DNA of 64,000 nucleotides from Streptomyces uncialis. GTDB taxonomy: Bacteria > Actinomycetota > Actinomycetes > Streptomycetales > Streptomycetaceae. A program made the position numbers and the translations under genes. The stretch lies in NCBI RefSeq assembly GCF_036250755.1, contig NZ_CP109583.1:2914001-2978000 (forward strand). The letters run 5' to 3'. Positions within the stretch are counted from its first letter, which is position 1, and the number at the start of each line of letters is the position of its first letter. Shown in pieces: positions 8,935-64,000 of this stretch. The notes beneath the pieces are model-generated. The model was not told the origin of the DNA, searched no databases, and saw nothing but the letters and a program-made list of their open reading frames with translations.

Positions 8935-9446
8935 CGCGCGCCCGGGTCCCCTGTGCTGGACGCGCTTGTCCCTGTGCCGTCGCTCGTGGGGTGCGCAGTT
9001 CCCCGCGGGTCGCCTTCGCTTGCGCTTCCGAGGTCTGTCCGGGTGGACGCACTTGTCCCTGTGCCGTCACTCGTGGGTTTCGCGCAGTTCCCCGCGCCCC
9101 TGGATGCTGCCCCCTTGCGGTCGCTCTTCGGGTGCGGGTCCGCCCTCGTTTTTGCGCAGTTCCCCGCGCCCCTGAAGGGGCACTTCTCTCCTCTCGCAGG
9201 CGCTCGGCTGCGGGAGGGGGTGGGCGGGAATCTCTGCTCGCAGACTCCGATGCTCTTCAGTCGGGTAGGGGGACGTCGTACCGAGCGTGTCGGATCGAGG
9301 ACGGAGAATCCCGACCGGCACCGACCCGAAGAACAAGCAGATGGCGCCCCAAAGGGGCGCGGGGAACTGCGCACCCCACGGGCGACGGCACAGGAACGAA
9401 GTACGCCCAGCCGGACAGACCCCGGGGCGCAAGCGAAGGCGAACCG
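8935..9446. repeat. intergenic repeat array B
   Basis: The space between gatC and the GGDEF-EAL gene carries three plus-oriented hairpin units (near 8990, 9078 and 9153, core GCAGTTCCCCGCG) and one reversed unit (near 9353, GGGGCGCGGGGAACTGCGC). Together they form an inverted arrangement around a conserved core at about 9211-9372. The linker TCGCCTTCGCTTGCGCTTCC appears on the left and its complement on the right. No gene is seen. Confidence 0.85.
9211..9372 (+). repeat. conserved core element of array B (copy 1 of 3)
   Basis: A segment of about 160 bp starting GGGAGGGGGTGGGCGGGAAT and ending in GCGCCCC-AAA-GGGGCGC. It recurs at 23556-23712 in the same orientation and at 57345-57505 in the opposite one. 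The copies at 9.2 and 57.4 kb are almost identical by eye. The element contains the segment CAGACTCCGATGCTCTTCAG in all copies and ends with a perfect hairpin. Confidence 0.8.
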
Positions 9447-15289: not shown

Positions 15290-15765
15290 CCGACGTGGTG
15301 GTGGTTGCTGCACGTTCCCGGCGTCCCGGCTTTCGCCGTGCCCCGGTGCGTGCCTGGGCCACGTGCGCGGTTCCTGGCGGCCCTGGGGTTCCACCTGTGG
15401 CCGTACTTCGTGCCCGTGCCGGTTCCACGGGGGTGCGCAGTTCCCCGCGCCCCTGGCGGGGCGGTTCTGACCGTCGCTGTTCCCGTGCTCGTCGCTCGTG
15501 GGGCGCAGTTCCCCGCGCCCCCAGGGTTCCACCCGTCGCCGCACTTCGTACCTGTGCCGGTTCCACGGGGGTGCGCAGTTCCCCGCGCCCCTGGCGGGGC
15601 GCGTCTGACCGTCGCTGTTCCCGTGCTCGTCGACCGTGGGGCGCAGTTCCCCGCGCCCCCAGGGTTCCACCCGTGGCCGTACTTCGTGCCCGTGCCGGTT
15701 CCACGGGGGTGCGCGGTTCCTCGCGCCCCTGGCGGGGCGCGTCTGATCGTCGCTGTTCCTGTGCG
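15290..15765. repeat. intergenic repeat array C (single orientation)
   Basis: Five hairpin units all point the same way on the plus strand (near 15433, 15498, 15570, 15639 and 15710), spaced about 65-72 bp. Each unit has the core GCAGTTCCCCGCGCCCC or a close variant (GCGGTTCCTCGCGCCCC in the last). Spacers alternate between two related types, one containing CGTACTTCGTGCCCGTGCCG and one CTGACCGTCGCTGTTCCCG. Unlike the other arrays there is no reversed arm and no core element. No gene is seen in 15262-15770. Confidence 0.85.
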
Positions 15766-23284: not shown

Positions 23285-23800
23285 CCCCGCAGGTCGCCTT
23301 CGCTTGCGCTTCCGAGGTCTGTCCGGCTGGGCCTACCTGTTCCCGTGCGGGTCGGACGGGGGTGCGCAGTTCCCCGCGCCCCTGGATGCTGCCCCATTGC
23401 GGTCGCTCCTAGGGTGCGGGTCCGCCCTCGTCTTTTGCGCAGTTCCCCGCGCCCCTTTGGGGGCGCTCTCCTGGGGCTGTCGTCAGGGTGCGGGCTGTCA
23501 GCAAGCGGGGCCGGGGTTCAAACCCCCCTCCTCGTGCAGTCGCGGGACTCACGTAAGGGGGTGGGCGGGAATCTCTGCCCGCAGACTCCGATGCTCTTCA
23601 GTCGGACCAGGGGGATGTCCGACCGAGCGCGTTGGAGCGAGGACGGAGAATCCCGACCGGCACCGACCCGAAGAACAAGCAGACGGCGCCCCAAAGGGGC
23701 GCGGGGAACTGCGCACCCACGAACGACGGCACAGGGACAGGTAGGCCCAGCTGGACAAACCTCGGAAGCGCAAGCGAAGGCGACCCGCCCCCGGCGGTCA
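23285..23800. repeat. intergenic repeat array D
   Basis: Between the TRIC gene and the peptide transporter: two plus-oriented units (near 23363 and 23436), the conserved core element, then one reversed unit (near 23697) and the linker GGAAGCGCAAGCGAAGGCGA. A GGGGTTCAAACCCC hairpin at 23513-23526 recalls a tRNA T-arm, but no cloverleaf surrounds it. A related TTGAACCCC motif appears beside the core copy at 57.5 kb. No gene is seen in 23265-23826. Confidence 0.85.
23556..23712 (+). repeat. conserved core element of array D (copy 2 of 3)
   Basis: Same element as at 9211-9372: GGGGGTGGGCGGGAATCTCT, the CAGACTCCGATGCTCTTCAG segment, and the closing GCGCCCC-AAA-GGGGCGC hairpin. It is more diverged in the middle (GACCAGGGGGATGTCCGACC in place of GGTAGGGGGACGTCGTACC). 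Confidence 0.75.
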
Positions 23801-32384: not shown

Positions 32385-33250
32385 GGGGTCCCCCGGGCTG
32401 GGCGTACCTGTTCCCGTGCGGGTCGCTCGTGGGGTGTGCGGTTCCCCGCGGGCCGCCTTCGCTTGCGCCTCTGGGTCTGCCCGGGTGGGCGTACCTGTTT
32501 CCTGTGCCGTCGCTCGTGGGGTGCGCAGTTCCCCGCGCCCCTAGGGTTCCCCGGCTGGGCGTACCTGTTCCCGTGCAGGTACTTCGGGGGTGCGCAGTTC
32601 CCCGCGCCCCTGGGTCTGCCCGGCTGGGCCCACTTGTTCCTGTGCCGTCGCTCGTGGGGTGCGCAGTTCCCCGCGCCCCTAGGTTTGCCCGGGTGGGCGT
32701 ACCTGTCCCTGTGCCGTCGCTCGTGGGGTGCGCAGTTCCTCGCGCCCCTGGGTCCTCGCGTCTGGGCGTACTTGTTCCTGTGCGGGCCGGACGGGGGGCG
32801 CAGTTCCCCGCGCCCCTGGGTACTCGCCCCTGGGCGTAACTCGTCCCGTGCGGGCCCGACAGGGGTGCGCGGTTCCTCGCGGGCCTGGGGGCTGCCGCCT
32901 CGGGGCCGGCCTGTGGCTGCCTGCCGCACCCGACCGGCAGCGTCCAGGGGCGCGATCAAGGGGCGCGGGGAACTGCGCACCCCCGTCGAGCCCGCACAGC
33001 ACGTGCGACGCCCACCCGGGACGACCCAGGAGCGCGGGGAACTGCGCACCCCCGAAGTACCCGCACGGGAACAAGTACGCCCAGCCGGGAAACCCTAGGG
33101 GCGCGGGGAACTGCGCACCCCACGAGCGACGGCACGGGAACAAGTACGCCCAGCCCGGGGAACCTCAGGGGTGCGGGGTACCGCGCAGACCGGGGGCGAC
33201 CCGCACGGGGAGAGGCGTGGGCGCGGACCCGGAGGCGCAAGCGAAGGCGA
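32385..33250. repeat. intergenic repeat array E (large inverted array)
   Basis: Seven units read on the plus strand (about 32430, 32520, 32590, 32658, 32728, 32797 and 32866). Then follow four on the minus strand (about 32957, 33033, 33100 and 33168), with period near 70 bp. Consensus core GTGCGCAGTTCCCCGCGCCCC, with variants GGTTCC and TTCCTCG. There is a centre of dyad near 32920 but no 150-bp core. The right edge overlaps the 3' end of the ATPase gene. No independent gene is seen in 32253-33164. Confidence 0.87.
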
Positions 33251-55229: not shown

Positions 55230-57121
55230 CGACGACGAGTGAACAGCCGCTGGCCCCGGACGAGGACCGGGGCCGCCGGGACGAACCGCCGCTCCCCGCG
55301 GCGTCCGGTCCTGGCGACGGGACCCGGGTCGACCCGTTCGACCAGGACGATCTGCCGACGCCCCGGGGCGCGACGGGCACCTTGCTGCGTTCGCTGCTCG
55401 GCCCGCACCGCAAGCTGGTCGCCGTGACGGCGCTGTGTCTGCTCGTCCAGCAGGCGGCGGTGCAGTCGGGCCCGCTGATCGTGGCGTACGCGATCGACAG
55501 CGCGGTCCCCGCGTTCCGCGCCGACGACCACGGCCCCCTGATCGGTGTCGCGGTGGCCTATCTGGTCGCGGCGCTGCTGGGCAGTCTGCTGGTGTACGGC
55601 TTCATCCGGCTGTCCGCGCGGGTGAGCCAGGCGGTGCTGCTGGATCTGCGGGGCCGGATCTTCCGGCACGGGCAGGCGCTGAGCGTCGACTTCCACGACC
55701 GGTACACCTCGGGACGGCTGATCTCACGGGCCACCACGGATGTGGAGGCGCTGCGGGAACTGCTGGAGGAGGGCCTTCAGGAGCTGGTCGGTTTCGTCGT
55801 GTCGTCGGTGTACATCATGGCGATGCTGCTGTGGCTGGACCTCGGGATGGGGTCGGTGGCCGTGCTGTCGTTCGTCCCGCTGTACTTCGTGATGCGGTGG
55901 TACCGCAGGCGGGCGGCGCGGGTGTTCGCCGAGCGGTCGACGGCGATCGCCGGGGTGATCGTGAAGTTCGCGGAGACCCTGGGCGGTATCCGTCCGGTAC
56001 GGGCGTTCCGCCGGGAGCGGGCCAACGACGAGCGGTTCGCGGTGCTCAACCGACGCCATGAGCGGGCCAACGGTGACTCGCTGCTGGAGATGGCCCGCTA
56101 TGTGACGCTGTCCCGGCTGATCGCCAACACGGCGGTGGCGGGGATGGTGCTGTGGGGCGGCTACCGGGTCGCGGGCGGCACGCTGGAACTGGGTGTGCTG
56201 GCGGCGGCGGTGCTGTACATCCGGCGGCTGTACGACCCGATCGACCGGCTGGCGATGTTCCTGAACTCGTACGAGTCGGCGAGCGCCTCGCTGAAGAAGA
56301 TCGCCGGGCTGCTGCACCAGCGGCCCTCGGTGGCGGAACCGGCCGAACCCCGGACCCTGCCCGCGCGCGCCGACGGCCGGCCCGGCCGGGAGGTCGTCTT
56401 CGACGGGGTGAGCTTCGGCTACCGCACCGGCGGGGAGATCCTGCCGCGCTTCGACCTGCGGATACCCGCTGGTCAGACGGTCGCCGTGGTGGGTTCCACG
56501 GGTGCGGGCAAGTCGACGCTGGCGAAGCTGCTGGCCCGGTTCTACGACCCCAGCGAGGGGCGGGTCCTGCTCGACGGGACGGATCTGCGGGACCTCGCGG
56601 TGCCGGAGCTGCGCAAGGGGGTGGTGATGGTCACCCAGGAGGCGTTCCTGTTCTCGGGGACGGTCGCGGAGAACATCGCCATCGGCCGCCCGGACGCCAC
56701 GCGCGCCGAGATCGAGGAGGCCGCGCGGGCGATCGGCGCGCACGAGTTCATCGTCGCCCTCCCGGACGGCTACGACACGGATGTCCGTAAACGGGGCGGG
56801 CGGATCTCGGCGGGTCAGCGTCAGCTCGTCGCCTTCGCGCGCGCGTTGCTGGCGGACCCGGCGGTGCTGATCCTGGACGAGGCGACCAGTTCCCTCGACA
56901 TCCCCGGCGAGCGGGCGGTGCAGCGGGCGATGGACACGGTGTTGCGGGGGCGCACGGCCGTGGTCATCGCGCACCGGCTGTCCACGGTGGAGATCGCGGA
57001 CCGGGTGCTGGTGATGGAACGGGGGCGGGTCGTCGAGGACGGTACGCCCGCGGAGCTCATCGCGGGGACGGGGGCGTTCGCGGGGCTGCATGCCGCTTGG
57101 CGGGAGAGCGTGGTCGGCTAG
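55226..57121 (+). CDS. ABC exporter half-transporter (partner, canonical ATPase)
   Basis: A 631-aa partner of the preceding gene, overlapping its stop codon (ATGA). An N-terminal extension of about 45 residues precedes six spans (LVAVTALCLLVQQAAVQSGPL first). The NBD has Walker A VVGSTGAGKSTLAKLLARFYDPSEG, Q-loop VMVTQEAFLFSGTVAENIA, signature RISAGQRQLVAFARALL, Walker B LILDEATSSLDIPGE with Glu present, and switch His in VIAHRLSTVEIADR. So one functional and one degenerate ATP site would form between the two. Substrate is unknown. The gene is followed by repeat array F. Confidence 0.94.
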   Translation: MTTTSEQPLAPDEDRGRRDEPPLPAASGPGDGTRVDPFDQDDLPTPRGATGTLLRSLLGPHRKLVAVTALCLLVQQAAVQSGPLIVAYAIDSAVPAFRADDHGPLIGVAVAYLVAALLGSLLVYGFIRLSARVSQAVLLDLRGRIFRHGQALSVDFHDRYTSGRLISRATTDVEALRELLEEGLQELVGFVVSSVYIMAMLLWLDLGMGSVAVLSFVPLYFVMRWYRRRAARVFAERSTAIAGVIVKFAETLGGIRPVRAFRRERANDERFAVLNRRHERANGDSLLEMARYVTLSRLIANTAVAGMVLWGGYRVAGGTLELGVLAAAVLYIRRLYDPIDRLAMFLNSYESASASLKKIAGLLHQRPSVAEPAEPRTLPARADGRPGREVVFDGVSFGYRTGGEILPRFDLRIPAGQTVAVVGSTGAGKSTLAKLLARFYDPSEGRVLLDGTDLRDLAVPELRKGVVMVTQEAFLFSGTVAENIAIGRPDATRAEIEEAARAIGAHEFIVALPDGYDTDVRKRGGRISAGQRQLVAFARALLADPAVLILDEATSSLDIPGERAVQRAMDTVLRGRTAVVIAHRLSTVEIADRVLVMERGRVVEDGTPAELIAGTGAFAGLHAAWRESVVG

Positions 57122-58325
57122 CCGCCTTCGCTTGCGCCTCCGGGTCCTGCCTCCTGCTGCCGCCCTTCGACCGCGGGTCGCCTTCGCTTGCGCTTCCGAG
57201 GTCCGTCCGGCTGGGCCTACCTGTCCCTGTGCGGGTACGTCCGTGGGTGCGCAGTTCCCCGCGGGTCGCCTTCGCTTGCGCTTCCCAGGTCCGTCCGGCT
57301 GGGCGTACTTCGTTCCTGTGCCGTCGCTCGTCGTTTTCGCGCAGTTCCCCGCGCCCCTTTGGGGCGCGTCCGGTCGGTTCTTCGGGTCGGTGCCGGTCGG
57401 GATTCTCCGTCCTCGATCCGACACGCTCGGTACGACGTCCCCCTACCCGACTGAAGAGCATCGGAGTCTGCGAGCAGAGATTCCCGCCCACCCCCTCCCG
57501 CAGCAGAGCGGGTCCGCGAGGAGGGGGGCTTGAACCCCGACCCCGCTTGCTGACAGCCCGCACCCTGACGACAGCCCCAGCAGGGCGCCCCCAAAGGGGC
57601 GCGGGAATTGCGCAAAATCGAGGACGGCCCGCACCCGAAGAACGACCGCGAGGGGGCAGCACCTAAGGGGCGCGGGGAACTGCGCACCCACGGACGTACC
57701 CGCACGGGAACAGGTACGCCCAGGTGAGGAACCCCAGGGGCGCGAGGAACTGCGCGAGCAACCAAGAACCACCCGCACCCGAACGGGAACCCCAAGGGGC
57801 ACAACCTCAGGGGCGCGGGGAACTGCGCACCCCACGAGCGACGGCACAGGAACAAGTCCGCCCAGCCGGACAGACCCAGGGGCGCGAGGAACTGCGCACC
57901 CACGGACGTACCCGCACAGGAACAAGTACGCCCAGGTGGGGAACCCCAGGGGCGCGGGGAACTGCGCACCCCCGTCCGACCCGCACAGGGACAAGTGGGC
58001 CCAGCCGGACAGACCCAGGGGCGCGAGGAACTGCGCGAGCAACCAAGGACCACCCGCACCCGAACGGGAACCCCAAGGGGCACAACCTCAGGGGCGCGGG
58101 GAACTGCGCACCCCACGAGCGACGGCACAGGAACAAGTCCGCCCAGCCGGACAGACCCAGGGGCGCGAGGAACTGCGCACCCACGGACGTACCCGCACAG
58201 GAACAGGTACGCCCAGGTGAGGAACCCCAGGGGCGCGGGGAACTGCGCACCCCACGAGCGACCCGCACAGGGACAAGTGGGCCCAGCCGGACAGACCTCG
58301 GAAGCGTAAGCGAAGGCGGCCCGCC
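57122..58325. repeat. intergenic repeat array F with 281-bp tandem duplication
   Basis: The largest array. Plus-oriented units lie near 57248 and 57340, then the core element (reversed, 57345-57505). Next come about ten minus-oriented units: one diverged unit near 57600 and nine regular units at about 57667, 57737, 57810, 57879, 57949, 58018, 58090, 58159 and 58228, spaced 69-73 bp. The block starting at 57737 (four units, 281 bp) is repeated starting at 58018 with only a handful of differences by eye. Linkers (CCTTCGCTTGCGCTTCC and complement) bound the array. No gene is seen. Confidence 0.87.
57345..57505 (-). repeat. conserved core element of array F (copy 3 of 3)
   Basis: Reverse complement of the element at 9211-9372. 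It runs from the GCGCCCC-TTT-GGGGCGC hairpin through CTGAAGAGCATCGGAGTCTG to ATTCCCGCCCACCCCCTCCC. By eye it differs from copy 1 at only a few positions, apart from a short CGACCGG insertion-like change near 57370. Confidence 0.8.
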
Positions 58326-58355
58326 CGGGCGGACGGACGGGTGAACGGACGGGCG

Positions 58356-59021
58356 TCAGGGGCCGTAGGCGCTGAGGAACGTGTCGACCGCTGCGGCCGC
58401 GATCTCCCGGCTCTCCGCGACGGAGATCCGCCGCGTACCGAGCCGCGTACGCAGCTCCAGCGGCCCCGTGAGCATCGCGAGCAACTGCTCCGCGGCCCGC
58501 GCGGGATCCGCGACCCGCAACCGCCCGGCGAGCGCGAACCGGGCGAGACGGTCGGCGAGCGCGTCCGCGATCCGTACGGCCGTGCGCCCGTGGACATCGA
58601 CCACGAGGTCGGGGAACTCGGCGACCTGACCATGGGTGAGCCAGCGCAGCGCCACGGCCCGCTCGCCCCGGCAGACCTGGAGCAGCCGGTGCGCCACGTC
58701 CTCCAGCGCGGCCGGCAGGTCGTCCCCGGGCGCGCGCAGCCGGTCGAGCACGGCCACGCACTCGTCGGCGACCGTGTCCGCGGCGGTCTGCATCGCCTGC
58801 CGGAACAGGTTCTCCTTGTCGTGGAGGTGGTTGTAGACGGTCGGTTTGGCGACCCCCGCCTCCTGGGCGACCTCCTTGACGCAGGCCCCCGCGTACCCCC
58901 GGCGGGCGAACACGGTGAACGCGGCGGTGAGGATCGCCCGCCGTTTGTCGATCTGCCCGCTGCCGCCGCCCGCGGCGCCGGTGGTGGTCCGTCCGGCGCT
59001 GTCCGGTGTCGCTCGCCCCAT
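58356..59021 (-). CDS. TetR-family transcriptional regulator
   Basis: A 221-aa repressor-like protein. After a Gly/Thr-rich tail, the TetR DNA-binding domain spans about residues 25-75 (KRRAILTAAFTVFARRGYAGACVKEVAQEAGVAKPTVYNHLHDKENLF). The ligand domain ends in a conserved C-terminal TetR_C motif (AAEQLLAMLTGPLELRTRLG). The intergenic space upstream (59022-59165) contains one perfect and one imperfect TGAACCCA-type palindrome, so it likely represses itself and the divergent Dabb gene. The effector is unknown. It could also regulate the adjacent P450/peptide block. Confidence 0.92.
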   Translation of the reverse strand: MGRATPDSAGRTTTGAAGGGSGQIDKRRAILTAAFTVFARRGYAGACVKEVAQEAGVAKPTVYNHLHDKENLFRQAMQTAADTVADECVAVLDRLRAPGDDLPAALEDVAHRLLQVCRGERAVALRWLTHGQVAEFPDLVVDVHGRTAVRIADALADRLARFALAGRLRVADPARAAEQLLAMLTGPLELRTRLGTRRISVAESREIAAAAVDTFLSAYGP

Positions 59022-59053
59022 GCCCGCATCGTAGCCCGGCGGCCTCGGAGACC

Positions 59054-59069
59054 TGAACCCATGGGTTCA
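59054..59069. promoter_or_regulatory. operator O1: perfect 16-bp palindrome
   Basis: TGAACCCATGGGTTCA is a perfect 16-bp dyad in the TetR/Dabb intergenic space, 33 bp upstream of the TetR start codon. Its arms match the operator at 59111-59126, so it is very likely bound by the TetR regulator. Confidence 0.75.
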
Positions 59070-59110
59070 ACTTCCCGGACTCCGGTGCTTTACTGATGAG
59101 GCCGACGAGG

Positions 59111-59126
59111 TGAACCCACGAGTTCA
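59111..59126. promoter_or_regulatory. operator O2: imperfect copy of the palindrome
   Basis: TGAACCCACGAGTTCA has the same left arm as O1 and a right arm with two changes. It is 57 bp from O1 (start to start) and 40 bp upstream of the Dabb start codon. The pair suggests cooperative binding and control of both divergent promoters. Confidence 0.7.
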
Positions 59127-59165
59127 CTTGTTGGCGGGCTCATCCCCTATGAGGAGGTCTTTGAC

Positions 59166-59564
59166 GTGATCGTCATCATTCTGCGCTTCAGCTTCCGGGA
59201 CACGACCACCGAGGCGGAGCGGGAGGAGGCGCTGACCGCGATGCGGCGTACGGCGACCGTGGAGTCGACGGTGTTCGGCGTGGTCGGCAGGGACATCGGC
59301 GACCCGGCCGAGGGCTTCACCCACACGTACAGCGCGGCCGTCACGGACTTCGGCGCGCTGGAGCGCTACACGTACGACCCGGTACATCTCGCGGGCGACG
59401 ACGTGATCCTGCCCCGGCTGTCCCGGCTCTCCGCGGTGCGGTTCTCCGACGATCCCGATCCCGCGCTGGTGGAGCGCATCAACGAGCTGCATCTGGAGAA
59501 GCGCGCCAGGTACCCCGAGTGGGACCGGCAGCTCGACGCGATCCCGGACACACGGCGCGGCTGA
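59166..59564 (+). CDS. Dabb (stress-responsive A/B barrel) domain protein, 132 aa
   Basis: A small protein of the ferredoxin-like dimeric alpha/beta-barrel class. The N-terminal strand is IVIILRFSFRD, followed by a helix (EREEALTAMRRTATVE). The central segment is VFGVVGRDIGDPAEGFTHTYSAAVTDFGALERYTYDPVHL, where the tyrosine- and His-containing strand is typical of Dabb, ending in a C-terminal helix. The GTG start has GAGGAGG upstream. Dabb proteins are stress-linked, some are monooxygenase- or cyclase-like. It is divergent from TetR and converges on the P450 gene, 34 bp away. Confidence 0.82.
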   Translation: MIVIILRFSFRDTTTEAEREEALTAMRRTATVESTVFGVVGRDIGDPAEGFTHTYSAAVTDFGALERYTYDPVHLAGDDVILPRLSRLSAVRFSDDPDPALVERINELHLEKRARYPEWDRQLDAIPDTRRG

Positions 59565-59598
59565 GGTGCCCGTACGGCGTGGGCGGTGGCCGGTGGGT

Positions 59599-60858
59599 CT
59601 ACCAGCGCACCGGGACCCGCCGGTCGCCGTGGCCGAGGAAGCCGTCCAGGGCGAGCGTGGGGCAGCGGCGCAGCAGGGTGCCGATGACGACGCGGCCCTC
59701 CAGCCGGGCCAGCGGGGCGCCGAGGCAGTGGTGGACGCCGTGGCCGAAGGCGAGGTGTCCGCGGCGTTCGGCGGGCGGGCGGCGGATGTCGAAGCGGTCG
59801 GGTGCGGGGAACCTGCCGGGGTCGCGGTCCGCGTCGGCCAGGGCGATCAGCACGACGCCGCCCCGGGGGATCACCGTGCCGCCGATGCCGACGGGCGCGA
59901 CGGCGACCCGGGGCGGGGCGGTGCCCACCGGGGCGTCGTAGCGCAGCATCTCCTCCACCGCTCCGGTGACCAGCGTGTCGGGGTCGGCGCGGAGCAGGGC
60001 CAGTTGGTCCGGGTGGGCGAAGAGGGCGCGGACGCCCTTGGAGATGAAGTTGACCGTGGACTCATGGCCCGCGATGAGCAGCAGGAAGGCCATGGAGAGC
60101 AGTTCGTCCTCGTCGAGCCGGTCGCCGTTCTCGTCCTCGGTGTGGATCAGCGCGCTGAGCAGGTCGTCGCCGGGGGCCGCGCGCTTCGCGGCGACGAGTC
60201 CGGAGAGATAGGGCACCGCCTCGGCCTGGGCGGCCCGCGCGGCCTCGGCGCTGGTGGGTGCGGCGACCTCGTCGGACCATCCCCGGAAGGCGTCCCGGTC
60301 CAGGTCGGGGATGCCGAGCAGTTCGCAGACGACGGTGAGCCGCAGCGGGTACGCGAGCGCGTCGACGAGGTCGGCGCGGCGGTCCGGGGCGGCGAGCATG
60401 GCGTCGAGGAGTGCGTCGGTGAGCCGCTGGACCCGGGGCTCCAGCGCGGCGACCCGGCGGGTGGTGAACTCCCTCGCCGCCAGCCGTCGCAGCCGGGTGT
60501 GGTCGGGGGGATCGCGCAGCAGCATATGGGCGTTCCCCGGGCCGTCGACGGGCGGCGGGGCGGGCAGCCCGGTGGCGATCGGGCCGTGCCGCCGCCAGTC
60601 GCGGCTGAGCGCGGGCGAGGTGAGCGCGGTCCGGCAGGCGTCGTATCCGACGACGAGCCAGAACCGCTCACCGCCGCCGCCCTTGACGAGGTGGACCGGC
60701 CCCCGGGAGCGCAGCCGCGCGTAGGCCGGGTAGGGGTCGGCGGCGAATCCGGGGTCGATGCCGAGGAGGTCCACCGCTTCGCGGGGTTCCCCGGGCGGGT
60801 GGGCTGCGGTGGCGGCCCCGGGGCCCGGGTACGGCTCCGCCGGTTCGGTGTCGGGCAT
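59599..60858 (-). CDS. cytochrome P450 (class I bacterial type)
   Basis: A 419-aa soluble P450. From the ATG at 60858 (AGGAAGG upstream) it begins MPDTEPAEPYPGPG. The I-helix has the normal oxygen-activation motif LLLIAGHESTVNF (Ala263-Thr268, acid Glu266). The K-helix ExxR is EEMLRY (303-306), and the heme loop is FGHGVHHCLGAPLAR with the axial Cys378. Other marks are DPPDHTRLRRLAAREFT in the C-helix. Redox partners are not encoded nearby. It is divergent from the candidate peptide precursor, with a 337-bp space between, and could share its regulation. Confidence 0.94.
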   Translation of the reverse strand: MPDTEPAEPYPGPGAATAAHPPGEPREAVDLLGIDPGFAADPYPAYARLRSRGPVHLVKGGGGERFWLVVGYDACRTALTSPALSRDWRRHGPIATGLPAPPPVDGPGNAHMLLRDPPDHTRLRRLAAREFTTRRVAALEPRVQRLTDALLDAMLAAPDRRADLVDALAYPLRLTVVCELLGIPDLDRDAFRGWSDEVAAPTSAEAARAAQAEAVPYLSGLVAAKRAAPGDDLLSALIHTEDENGDRLDEDELLSMAFLLLIAGHESTVNFISKGVRALFAHPDQLALLRADPDTLVTGAVEEMLRYDAPVGTAPPRVAVAPVGIGGTVIPRGGVVLIALADADRDPGRFPAPDRFDIRRPPAERRGHLAFGHGVHHCLGAPLARLEGRVVIGTLLRRCPTLALDGFLGHGDRRVPVRW

Positions 60859-61195
60859 GGCGGCCTTCCTGGTGCCGGGCTCCGGTCCGCTGCCCGCCCG
60901 CCGCCCCGGAGGAAGGACGGGGCACGGGCGGGATCCGGGGCGAACGGGAGCGGGTGGACGGGACGCGGGCGGGCGTATGCGGGGGCGAGCGGAGTGCGGA
61001 CGGGAGCGTGGACGGGGGTGCGGGCAGGGGCCGTCGGGCTGTCCGGGCAGGGAGCACCGACCCGTCGGCCGACCGGTCGTCACCGTAGCCCCGGGAGGGG
61101 TGCGAATCCCAGGGCGCCGACGCGGGACCACCCGGAAAGGTGCAGGATACAGAGAGTATTTACGCAGGTCAGAGCCATGATGATCATAAATTTCG
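60859..61195. promoter_or_regulatory. divergent promoter region between P450 and peptide gene
   Basis: No gene is seen. The left part is GC-rich, low-complexity DNA with repeated GCGGGCGGG/GGGAGCG words. The right end, just before the peptide ATG, is exceptionally AT-rich for this genome (GAGAGTATTTACGCAGG, then ATGATGATCATAAATTTCG) with the 8-bp palindrome ATGATCAT at 61180-61187. No Shine-Dalgarno stands before 61196, so a leaderless or very short-leader transcript is likely. Confidence 0.5.
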
Positions 61196-61282
61196 ATGGC
61201 CAAGCGCGTCCTGTACAAGGCTGCGAGCAAGCTGGGCTTCACCACGAAGGGTGCGGCCGGTGCCTACCCCTGGGTTCCCTAG
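61196..61282 (+). CDS. candidate RiPP precursor peptide, 28 aa, ending in YPWVP
   Basis: An unlisted short ORF in a third frame inside a much longer chance frame. It runs ATG 61196 to TAG 61282. The peptide has a basic, helix-prone leader (MAKRVLYKAASKLGFTTKG) followed by AAGAYPWVP at the C-terminus. Third positions are less GC-rich than in neighbouring genes (GCT, GGT, GGT, GTT). In P450-modified RiPP families such as biarylitides and atropopeptides, short precursors end in Tyr/Trp-containing cores that a P450 cross-links. Two P450 genes flank this ORF. The core would be about AYPWVP. There is no visible protease, transporter or other tailoring gene adjacent. A stop in frame lies immediately before the ATG, so 61196 is the earliest start. 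Confidence 0.6.
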   Translation: MAKRVLYKAASKLGFTTKGAAGAYPWVP

Positions 61283-61470
61283 GGAGAGCGCCACTCCGGA
61301 CGGCCCGGTCCCGGCTCCCGGGGCCGGGCCGCTCCCGTTCCGCGGCCATGAAGTCAGGTCAGCGGTCATGGACTGCGGTCCACGGCGCTGGATTGCGGTC
61401 CGCAGTCCATGGCGTCCGGTCCGTACGACCAGGGCGAGCCGAACCGTACGACCAGAGCGAGGGGTGTCCG

Positions 61471-62745
61471 TTGACCGAACAGACCGTGCCCCGGCCTCCC
61501 GTCCCCACCGGGGCCTCCCAGGCCGAGATGCTGGAGCGTTACGAGGACGACCGGCTCGGCCATCTGCTGTCCAGCGCGCGGCGGTTCGGCCCGGTCTGCG
61601 AACTCACCGAGGGCACTGTCCTCGTCAGCGATCCCGCGCTTGTGCACGATGTGCTGAAGCGCACCAACACCGACTTCCTGGTGACGAGCAACATCCGCCG
61701 GGACGAGGTCAGCGGGGAGCGCGGCGACCCGGGCACCGAGGCGTGGATGCGGGGGCGGCGCGCGACCCAGAAGGGCATGGGCCCGGCCGCGCTCGCCGCG
61801 CACCGCGAGTGGCTGACGGAGGAGACGGAACGGCTGATCGCCGGCTGGCGCACCCGTTCCTCGGTGACCGATCCGGTCGCGGAGCTGGAGCGGCTCTCGG
61901 CGCGCTCCTTCACCCGCTTCTGCTTCGGCACCCGTGACCCCGGGGCGGCGGCCCGGCGCACCGGCGAACTGCTGGCCGCGCTCACCCCGATCATCAGCAG
62001 CCCCTTCCACTTCCCGCGCGCGATCCGCCGTTTCATGCCCCGCTACCGGCGCTCGGTGGACGCCCAGCGGACCCTGGAGCGGGAGTTGCGGCGGGCGCTC
62101 GACGCCCCGGGCGGGGGCGGGCTCGTCGAGTCGCTCGCGGACGCGGGGCTGGACCCCGAGGCGTCGGTGCGGATGCTGGTGTCCAACGGGCTGGCCTCCT
62201 ACCGGGTCCCGGCGGCGGCCGTGACCTGGACCCTCGTCGCGCTGGCCCGGAATCCGGCGGTCGCCGACGAACTCGCCGGACGGCTCGGCGGCGCGGGGAC
62301 GGGTGACGGAGCAGGTGACGCGGACGGGGACCCGCTGCTGGCGTGGACGATCGCCGAGTCGCTGCGGCTGTGGCCCCCGAACTGGCTGATCCTGCGGACC
62401 GCGAACGGCGAACAGAGCTGCGGCGGCTGGCGGTTGCCGCCCAGCGCCTCGGTGATCGTCTCGCCCTACGTGGTCCACCGGACGGCGCCCTCGTTCGCCG
62501 GTGACCCCGACACGTTCCGTCCGGAGCGGTGGTCCGGGATGAACCCGGGTCCCGGCGAGTACCTTCCGTACGGCATCGGCAGCCGCTGGTGCGTCGGCAA
62601 GGCGCTCGCCGATCTGGAGCTGAAGACCATCGTCGCGGCCCTCGCCCGTGAGTTCCGCTTCTCGGTGCGGACGATGGCCGAGCGGCCGGACGTCCGGACC
62701 ACCCTGCTCCCGGCGTCCCTGACCCTCGGCCTGCGGCCACGTTGA
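61471..62745 (+). CDS. atypical cytochrome P450 lacking the I-helix acid-alcohol pair
   Basis: A 424-aa P450 starting at TTG 61471 with GAGGGG 6 nt upstream; the long frame upstream is spurious. The K-helix ExxR is ESLR in AESLRLWPPNWLILR (296-299), the meander is FRPERW, and the heme loop is YGIGSRWCVGKALAD with axial Cys374. In the I-helix, where most P450s have (A/G)Gx(D/E)T, it reads LASYRVPAAAVTW (241-253), so the acid is Arg and the Thr is Val. This implies a non-standard oxygen-activation route, as seen in some cross-linking or peroxide-type P450s. Its position 188 bp after the peptide ORF suggests it acts on that peptide. Confidence 0.92.
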   Translation: MTEQTVPRPPVPTGASQAEMLERYEDDRLGHLLSSARRFGPVCELTEGTVLVSDPALVHDVLKRTNTDFLVTSNIRRDEVSGERGDPGTEAWMRGRRATQKGMGPAALAAHREWLTEETERLIAGWRTRSSVTDPVAELERLSARSFTRFCFGTRDPGAAARRTGELLAALTPIISSPFHFPRAIRRFMPRYRRSVDAQRTLERELRRALDAPGGGGLVESLADAGLDPEASVRMLVSNGLASYRVPAAAVTWTLVALARNPAVADELAGRLGGAGTGDGAGDADGDPLLAWTIAESLRLWPPNWLILRTANGEQSCGGWRLPPSASVIVSPYVVHRTAPSFAGDPDTFRPERWSGMNPGPGEYLPYGIGSRWCVGKALADLELKTIVAALAREFRFSVRTMAERPDVRTTLLPASLTLGLRPR

Positions 62746-62792
62746 GGACAGGCCGCCCCTCCCTCCGCCCGCGGCCACGTCGAGCATGGGGC

Positions 62793-62813
62793 GGCGCCCC
62801 AGCCCGGGGCGCC
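62793..62813 (+). terminator. terminator hairpin after the second P450
   Basis: GGCGCCCC-AGCCC-GGGGCGCC, a perfect 8-bp stem, 48 bp after the P450 stop codon. It closes the peptide-P450 unit. Confidence 0.65.
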
Positions 62814-63548
62814 CCCTCCCCCGGCACCCCGATCCGCACCCGACCGTTCACTTCCGGCCATGGGCGGGCCGGAAGCGCTCCCCCACCGAGGCGGCCCCCT
62901 CCGCCCCAAGCCCGGCGCACACCGGTCCGCCCCCGGTCCGCGGCACGACCCCCAGGGCCTCCGTCCGGCACCCCGGACGGCCGTCCGGTCAACGGACGCG
63001 CACCGCGCGGAGCTCGCGAACCGGACGGCGGGCGTCCCCCGTAGCGGCCTTCGGCGCGGTCCCGGCCCGAGGGCACGGTGTGCCGGGCCGACGGCCGCCA
63101 CCGCGCCCCGGCCCGCTCTCCGGTTACCGAACATGACCATCCGTGCAACGGACCATTTCGAGCCAAGATAATGACGCGCCCCTGACAAGTACGTCACCGA
63201 GGTGCCAGTCTTCCCCTCGGTCGCCCTGCCGCACAGCTCAGTCCCCCGACCCCGGGCACGGCGTCCAGGCACCTGGTGCTCGGCGGCACCACGTGCCACC
63301 GCACGGCACGACATATCCGCGCGACCGGCAACGACGGCGCCACCCCCCACCCTCTACCGCAACGCGTCGCCGTCCCACCCGCACCACCGCGCCACGGCCC
63401 CCACGCCCCCGCGTCGGCGGCCGTTCCTCCCCGGTCGGAGGAAGCACGCGTGTCCACCCGCACATGGTTCCGCCCCGCTCTGCCCGGACGGCCACCCGCC
63501 GACCGGTCCCCCTGGCCGTGCCCGACGGCGGCCACGCAGAAGGAGTCC
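62814..63548. other. long GC-rich intergenic region with no recognised gene
   Basis: All six frames are shadow-like (Pro/Arg/Ala runs without domains). Near 63150-63190 there is AT-richer DNA (CGAGCCAAGATAATGACG) that could be a promoter for the metalloprotease 360 bp downstream. The last 20 bp hold its AAGGAG Shine-Dalgarno. Confidence 0.4.
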
Positions 63549-64000
63549 GTGTTGAGACCCACCTCCCCCATACCCCCCACCTCCGGTTCCCGGCCCGTAC
63601 GACGCCGTCGTGCGGCGACCGGGGGCGCGCTCGTCGCCGTCGCCGCGCTGCTGGCGGTCGCCGTGCAGAGCGGTGCCGCGACCGCCGCGCCCGAGGGACG
63701 GCCCCTGGCCGCGCCCACCAAGGCCGACCCCGGCTCGCTGCCCGCGCAGCTCTCCCCCGCCCAGCGTGCCGCGCTGATCCGCGCCGCCCAGGCGAAGTCG
63801 GCGCGGACCGCCGGGGAACTCGGCCTCGGGGCCAAGGAGAAGCTCGTCGTCCGGGATGTGATCAAGGACCGTGACGGCTCCCTGCACACCCGCTACGAGC
63901 GCACCTACGACGGACTGCCCGTCCTCGGCGGCGACCTCGTCGTGGACAGCGCGAAGTCCGGTGCCACGCAGGGCGTGACCAAGGCGTCCAAGTCGGCCCT
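63549..64000 (+). CDS. secreted thermolysin-type (M4) metalloprotease, N-terminal fragment
   Basis: The gene runs off the right edge. From the GTG at 63549 (a TTG directly after it is equally possible) the protein has a long basic n-region (SGSRPVRRRRAATGG), then a hydrophobic core (ALVAVAALLAVAVQSGAATAA) for secretion. The pro-region follows, with the FTP (fungalysin/thermolysin propeptide) pattern VVRDVIKDRDGSLHTRYERTYDGLPVLGGDLVVD. The catalytic HExxH motif would be further downstream, outside the window, so the M4 assignment rests on the propeptide only. Such proteases are secreted degraders in Streptomyces. Confidence 0.85.
   Translation, partial: MLRPTSPIPPTSGSRPVRRRRAATGGALVAVAALLAVAVQSGAATAAPEGRPLAAPTKADPGSLPAQLSPAQRAALIRAAQAKSARTAGELGLGAKEKLVVRDVIKDRDGSLHTRYERTYDGLPVLGGDLVVDSAKSGATQGVTKASKSA

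Follow-up and report, generated by a model that had tools for sequence, protein, structure and literature searches.

Cyptides such as roseovertin, rubrin and lapparbin are made from a leader-bearing precursor, on which a dedicated P450 installs an aryl cross-link; links between Tyr and Trp occur among them (described from Nam et al., 2023, in PMC12299652 and PMC12352619). MpoB, a P450 cyptide synthase, acts on a YPW motif and cross-links it, to go by the title of Khan et al. (2025; RSC Chem. Biol. 6:1386), which is cited in PMC13383641. The aminopyruvatide P450, ApyO, cross-links YLY and also modifies YLW and WLY variants with a loss of 2 Da, the WLY variant being linked through the indole nitrogen; as PMC13192836 has it, the enzyme requires an Arg five residues before the first Tyr, Lys giving about 8% conversion. 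Two other families come from short precursors and P450s. The biarylitides are described as having a pentapeptide precursor with a two-residue leader and an MxYxW motif (PMC13417212), and the atropopeptides as having a leader motif KSLK, RSLK, ESLK, KSRK, KPLK or PSLK and a Trp at core position 2 (PMC11450843).

Here we describe a locus of this kind in a window of 64,000 nucleotides from the 9.26-Mb genome of Streptomyces uncialis. A first-pass annotation had pointed to a 28-codon ORF between two P450 genes as a candidate precursor of a P450-modified RiPP. The ORF is where it was said to be, and both neighbours match the Pfam p450 model above its cut-off (Table 1). The zone upstream of the ORF is also AT-rich as claimed (43% GC at 61140-61195). 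The codon use, said to be unlike that of the neighbours, differs only slightly (GC3 0.857 over 28 codons, against 0.925 and 0.945), and as the gap comes from few codons we have dropped codon use as an argument for the precursor.

Table 1. Features of the precursor-P450 locus, numbered from the first nucleotide of the window
Feature	Position	Strand	Description
P450_1	59599..60858	-	Accessory P450; AGHEST in I helix; predicted second oxidation
Precursor peptide gene	61196..61282	+	28 codons, ATG to TAG; product MAKRVLYKAASKLGFTTKGAAGAYPWVP; kept in 9 Streptomyces loci, with third-position-biased substitution
Lys18 codon	61247..61249	+	Candidate docking residue, six before Tyr24, by analogy with ApyO
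Tyr24-Pro25-Trp26 codons	61265..61273	+	Predicted cross-linked motif; [YH]xW end in 16/16 family loci
Hairpin	61298..61335 (main stem)	+	Strong, 3' of precursor stop; z -2.7; possible transcript attenuator or stabiliser
P450_2	61471..62745	+	TTG start; predicted Tyr-Trp cross-linking cyptide synthase; heme motif YGIGSRWCVG

The pairing of a short precursor gene with a dedicated P450 gene, characteristic of cyptides, is found here. The likeness to the published cyptides, which lies in the dedicated P450 and the leader-bearing precursor, is one of description and leaves core motif and spacing aside (PMC12299652; PMC12352619). The YPW motif and the enzyme class are the same as those of the MpoB system, as far as the title of that work tells. 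The first-pass annotation had held that the product could be new; this was too strong, since cross-linking of YPW by MpoB is already in print (PMC13383641), and the claim of a new core class is withdrawn. ApyO shares the aromatic-x-aromatic motif and a basic residue ahead of the first Tyr, the Arg (or Lys) standing five residues before it there and the Lys six before it here. The Apy clusters are also described with other modifying enzymes (PMC13192836), whereas none is common to the loci that we inspected.

The biarylitides share the Tyr-x-Trp spacing, but their five-residue precursor contrasts with the 28 residues, leader included, found here, and on the pentapeptide definition (PMC13417212) membership is rejected. 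With the atropopeptides the two-gene core of precursor and P450 is shared, and some of their clusters are reported to hold additional P450s (PMC11450843). Membership is rejected here too: the peptide has no KSLK-type motif, and AYPWVP has no Trp at position 2 if the core starts at Ala23. Core strings of the AYPW[VI]P type gave no RiPP paper among the matches listed in open-licence literature, a result that is not proof of absence from print.

The frame is conserved. Of 295 genomes sampled from the genus, 4 contain the peptide among the matches listed, its own genome included (E values from 5.5e-11 to 4.6e-14). When named genomes were scanned with an alignment built from 17 relatives of P450_2, and the best 80 of 211 relatives were kept, eight Streptomyces loci emerged, each with the peptide 5' of the P450: Streptomyces sp. 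rh34, S. anulatus, Streptomyces sp. WZ.A104, S. durocortorensis, S. spirodelae, S. boncukensis, S. smyrnaeus and S. californicus (L009-L016, in this order). Three of the eight are apparently the same genomes as matches in the sample of 295. Over these eight loci and the window, the nine Streptomyces loci of what follows, the consensus is MAKRxLxxAAxKxGxTxKGxxGAYPW[VI]P, placed 5' of a P450_2 orthologue, and the YPW motif is present in all nine. Variation is concentrated in third codon positions: the variable columns at positions 1, 2 and 3 number 5, 6 and 16 of 28. In every differing pair of the nine coding sequences pN is below pS, except between spirodelae and smyrnaeus (0 synonymous and 3 non-synonymous changes); it should be noted that the nearest pairs have too few changes for pN against pS to mean much. 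Three outcomes had been set beforehand as counting against the proposal, namely a frame not conserved, third positions without bias, and stops or frameshifts. None was seen in the nine loci, and the substitution pattern indicates that the frame is under purifying selection.

The association of precursor and P450_2 extends beyond Streptomyces. In a tree of 45 P450 rows (midpoint-rooted, for drawing only), P450_2 falls within a group of 29 rows with support of 100/100. Thirteen of these rows are proteins without DNA, and the search for precursors was restricted to the other 16. In all 16 loci a small ORF whose product closes with [Y/H]-x-W and 1-5 further residues lies at most 450 nt upstream of the P450 gene, the pattern having been written post hoc with the precursors already seen; the 16 are not 16 independent events, because they have common ancestry and several Streptomyces copies are near-identical. 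The same pattern was found in 2 of 77 other P450 loci (other P450 groups from the same searches, some near-identical, and not a random genome sample), in 50 of 3000 shuffled upstream regions (with single-base composition alone preserved) and in none of 15 reverse strands. The 16 do not include L008, where the precursor region is missing, or L088-L092, which are repeats or near-repeats of counted loci and have the precursor in 5 of 5.

The ends of these precursors vary. In Streptomyces they read AYPW[VI]P in nine loci, one with SSR added; elsewhere they read GAYPWH (Actinoplanes), GRYPWH (G186), GMYEWS (two Rhodococcus), THYWL (Actinomadura), ASYIWH (G831) and ASYAWV (G904). In an alignment of 8 distinct precursors Y24 and W26 are invariant, while the middle residue, leader and tail vary; related precursors also have, as read by eye, K or R 5 or 6 residues ahead of the [Y/H]xW motif. 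The pairing of precursor and P450_2 thus persists although the end of the peptide diverges. Together with the conservation of the frame, this supports the earlier proposal of a P450-modified RiPP precursor. One member of the group, the P450 of L093 (with an RYPWH precursor), is of unsure place in the tree because of its long branch (1.55) and unusual heme motif, PFGAGARRCVA.

A search of 394 genomes of the class gave one match beyond the genome of the window. Within the 29-row group, a P450_2 relative from Micromonospora polyrhachis (P0015; 43% identity) adjoins the Streptomyces lineage in the tree with modest support (84/81). Used as a query against 250 genomes of the family to which the genome matched in the class search belongs, P0015 gave two relatives, at 42-43% identity and with ASYIWH and ASYAWV precursors, and no match near 100%. 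From the name alone we would guess that P0015 is MpoB, and P450_2 would then be kin to MpoB. If so, the published YPW chemistry would fall within the 29-row group.

Several other small ORFs were seen beside P450 genes. At L107:1299-1385 a precursor-like ORF, MTKIMTLTVLRLNRGKMGGRYHWATPTG, precedes a P450 gene that the tree places outside the 29-row group; it is one of the two matches among the control loci, and this match may be a genuine precursor. Precursors of a second group end in AGFYKY and lie upstream of a separate P450 group (L020, L022, L023, L024, L039 and L094), which in the members inspected, L039 not among them, has the heme motif PFGAGPL[IV]CMG with Leu replacing the usual Arg. 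For FYKY with a P450 as a RiPP precursor there was no match in open-licence literature, which again is no proof of absence from print. Finally, small ORFs adjoining more distant P450s (L095, L097-L103, L105 and L106) end in GRYPYWPYQLR, GRYSYWPYHHR, GRYIYWYHAR, GMYTYWNIFN or the like of AYYYYYVQAR, and look like further groups of P450-RiPP precursors.

What kind of enzyme is P450_2? Its best NCBIfam model is that of ApyO (NF050147), but with 154.2 bits it is far below the curated cut-off of 525, and membership of the ApyO family is rejected. The I helix of P450s canonically bears an acid-alcohol pair. That of P450_2, NGLASYRVPAAAVTW, is without the pair, and in the AlphaFold model (pLDDT 85.7) it is broken before Val246-Pro247. 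Such a helix would favour radical coupling, and the AGHEST of P450_1 would favour oxygen insertion. A fold search with the P450_2 model gave general P450 matches, CYP184A1 being the best (23-24% identity), and no RiPP P450 by description among the best 50 of 1651 matches. This result is neutral for the RiPP reading of P450_2.

The two P450s that flank the precursor are not equivalent: P450_2 has a precursor upstream in all 16 family loci, whereas P450_1 was found only at Streptomyces AYPW[VI]P loci, 7 of these 9. There it comes in two gene arrangements. In the window, L010, L011, L012 and L016 it is transcribed divergently from the precursor, and in L013 and L015 it lies beyond P450_2 and faces it. 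L014 has no P450_1 in the 4 kb upstream, and its contig ends just past P450_2. In L093, L108 and L109 the flanks of about 1.5 kb are too short to judge.

Among the 295 congeneric genomes of the P450_1 search (drawn like those of the peptide search, and taken as the same set), relatives of at least 75% identity were found only in three, G000, G127 and G178, among the matches listed, and each of the three also carries the precursor. In 21 more genomes the matches that reach the threshold have 57-64% identity. G073 has the precursor, yet is not among the P450_1 matches listed. A P450_1 protein from a further S. uncialis entry (P0018, 426 aa) is 98% identical over the full query. The family behind P450_1 is large (of 7998 candidate proteins scored, 7326 reach E <= 1e-60), and for this reason P450_1 looks like a recruited member. 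Judged by its distribution, P450_1 appears to belong to the Streptomyces precursor system.

This tight association with the Streptomyces precursor group could also be read as a sign that P450_1, alone or jointly with P450_2, forms the cross-link, P450_2 then doing another step; P450s with canonical I helices are also capable of phenol coupling. We consider this improbable. P450_2 is found at the 9 Streptomyces loci and 7 further ones, whereas P450_1 is not found within 4 kb of it in L009, L017, L018, L019 and L040.

The signals around the ORF bear on a different reading of the peptide. A terminator had been reported after the precursor: the strong hairpin is there, but the T-tract is not, and a terminator scan of 60800-61500 gave 0 sites. 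A strict intrinsic terminator is accordingly rejected for lack of a T-tract. In 10 of 13 loci a hairpin with a z of -2.7 or below comes after the stop codon of the precursor; the value is -1.6 in boncukensis, and spirodelae and smyrnaeus have no hairpin in the first 70 nt after the stop. The hairpin could raise the ratio of precursor to enzyme. No sigma-70-like promoter was found in a scan of 60800-61500. A GAGG-type Shine-Dalgarno sequence before the ATG is absent from the window copy and present in 6 of 8 relatives; spirodelae and smyrnaeus have GGGGA alone.

Attenuators too have a strong hairpin before the gene that they control, and the peptide might be a regulatory leader peptide or a small functional protein of the P450_2 mRNA, acting through attenuation or translational coupling, and not a substrate. 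Against this reading, the precursor ORF has no run of one regulatory codon, the P450 partner resembles RiPP cross-linking P450s, and an aromatic-x-Trp end that is kept across genera, with a changing leader and tail, would be left unexplained. We rate it as unlikely as the assignment of the cross-link to P450_1. The least credible reading, to which we give practically no weight, is that the frame arose by chance between two P450 genes that are unrelated and serve other pathways: GC-rich DNA commonly contains short ORFs (those of at least 20 aa that overlap 57000-64000 number 75), so 28 codons by themselves are unremarkable, and the window copy has a weak ribosome-binding site, but the reading is refuted by cross-genus conservation and third-position bias, which mark the ORF as more than chance.

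The surroundings of the precursor-P450 unit are varied, as the TetR, Dabb and ABC genes of the window are found in only one other locus, that of S. uncialis DCA2648 (L008), and are absent from the other 15 loci compared. The unit may thus move as a block. No protease or transporter gene common to the loci inspected was seen. In Rhodococcus (L018) an MFS transporter gene follows the P450. At the AYPWH locus of Actinoplanes flavus (L017:1790-6047) genes for a TauD-type dioxygenase, an FMN-dependent dehydrogenase and an alpha/beta hydrolase adjoin the P450, and the product there may therefore carry more modifications.

DCA2648 is a close relative of the strain studied here and shares 98.6% identity with it over 2347 bases on the side of P450_2. 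It has no DNA matching about 1 kb of the window (60657-61654), so that the precursor gene is gone, as is the 5' end of each P450 gene; the gap site is at L008:4015-4095, and there is no N in the locus. Either the system is dispensable in that strain or the assembly is wrong, and both are possible. Elsewhere in the window a repeat, GCGCGGGGAACTGCGC, occurs in 35 copies (at up to 2 mismatches) against 0.38 expected. Its clusters lie at 57249-58293 and at about 946-1111, 8993-9372, 15435-15726, 23364-23714 and 32523-33116; the stretch at 57666-58293 is a tandem array of 8.9 copies of units of about 70 bp, and in the array region S. uncialis aligns in diverged, overlapping pieces.

In sum, we hold with considerable confidence that the ORF encodes a YPW-type cyptide precursor, that P450_2 links Tyr24 to Trp26, that P450_1 carries out an oxidation and that a host protease completes maturation. 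We infer the following order of steps. The basic leader would dock the peptide on P450_2, Lys18 probably being important. P450_2 would then remove two hydrogens and link the Tyr24 side chain, over Pro25, to that of Trp26 by a C-N or C-C bond, very probably closing the Tyr-Pro-Trp end into a small ring, a three-residue macrocycle. A Tyr-Trp link with loss of two hydrogens is what the likeness to ApyO leads one to expect, given that the YLW and WLY variants are reported as cross-linked there and that a basic residue precedes the motif (PMC13192836). In the Streptomyces AYPW[VI]P group, P450_1 may carry out a further oxidation on the cross-linked peptide, and a host protease encoded outside the cluster would cut off the leader. 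More tentatively, and with the balance somewhat against it, the Streptomyces system could be a two-P450 cyptide: once P450_2 had stapled Tyr24 to Trp26, P450_1 would add a different oxidation, a hydroxylation or a second ring, to the AYPW[VI]P core, to give a scaffold not yet described.

It is well supported that the system joins the known cyptide-like peptides and that what it has in addition is a partner P450, whose job is the more interesting question. Nine Streptomyces loci thus carry a two- to three-gene RiPP system that had not been annotated, with kin in Actinoplanes, Rhodococcus and Actinomadura. The precursors offer a natural series of substrates, YPW, YEW, YIW, YAW and HYW, in which to see how a P450 cross-link depends on the middle residue and on the lysine of the leader. 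The Streptomyces loci offer, besides, a natural pair of P450s that can be studied with or without the accessory enzyme.
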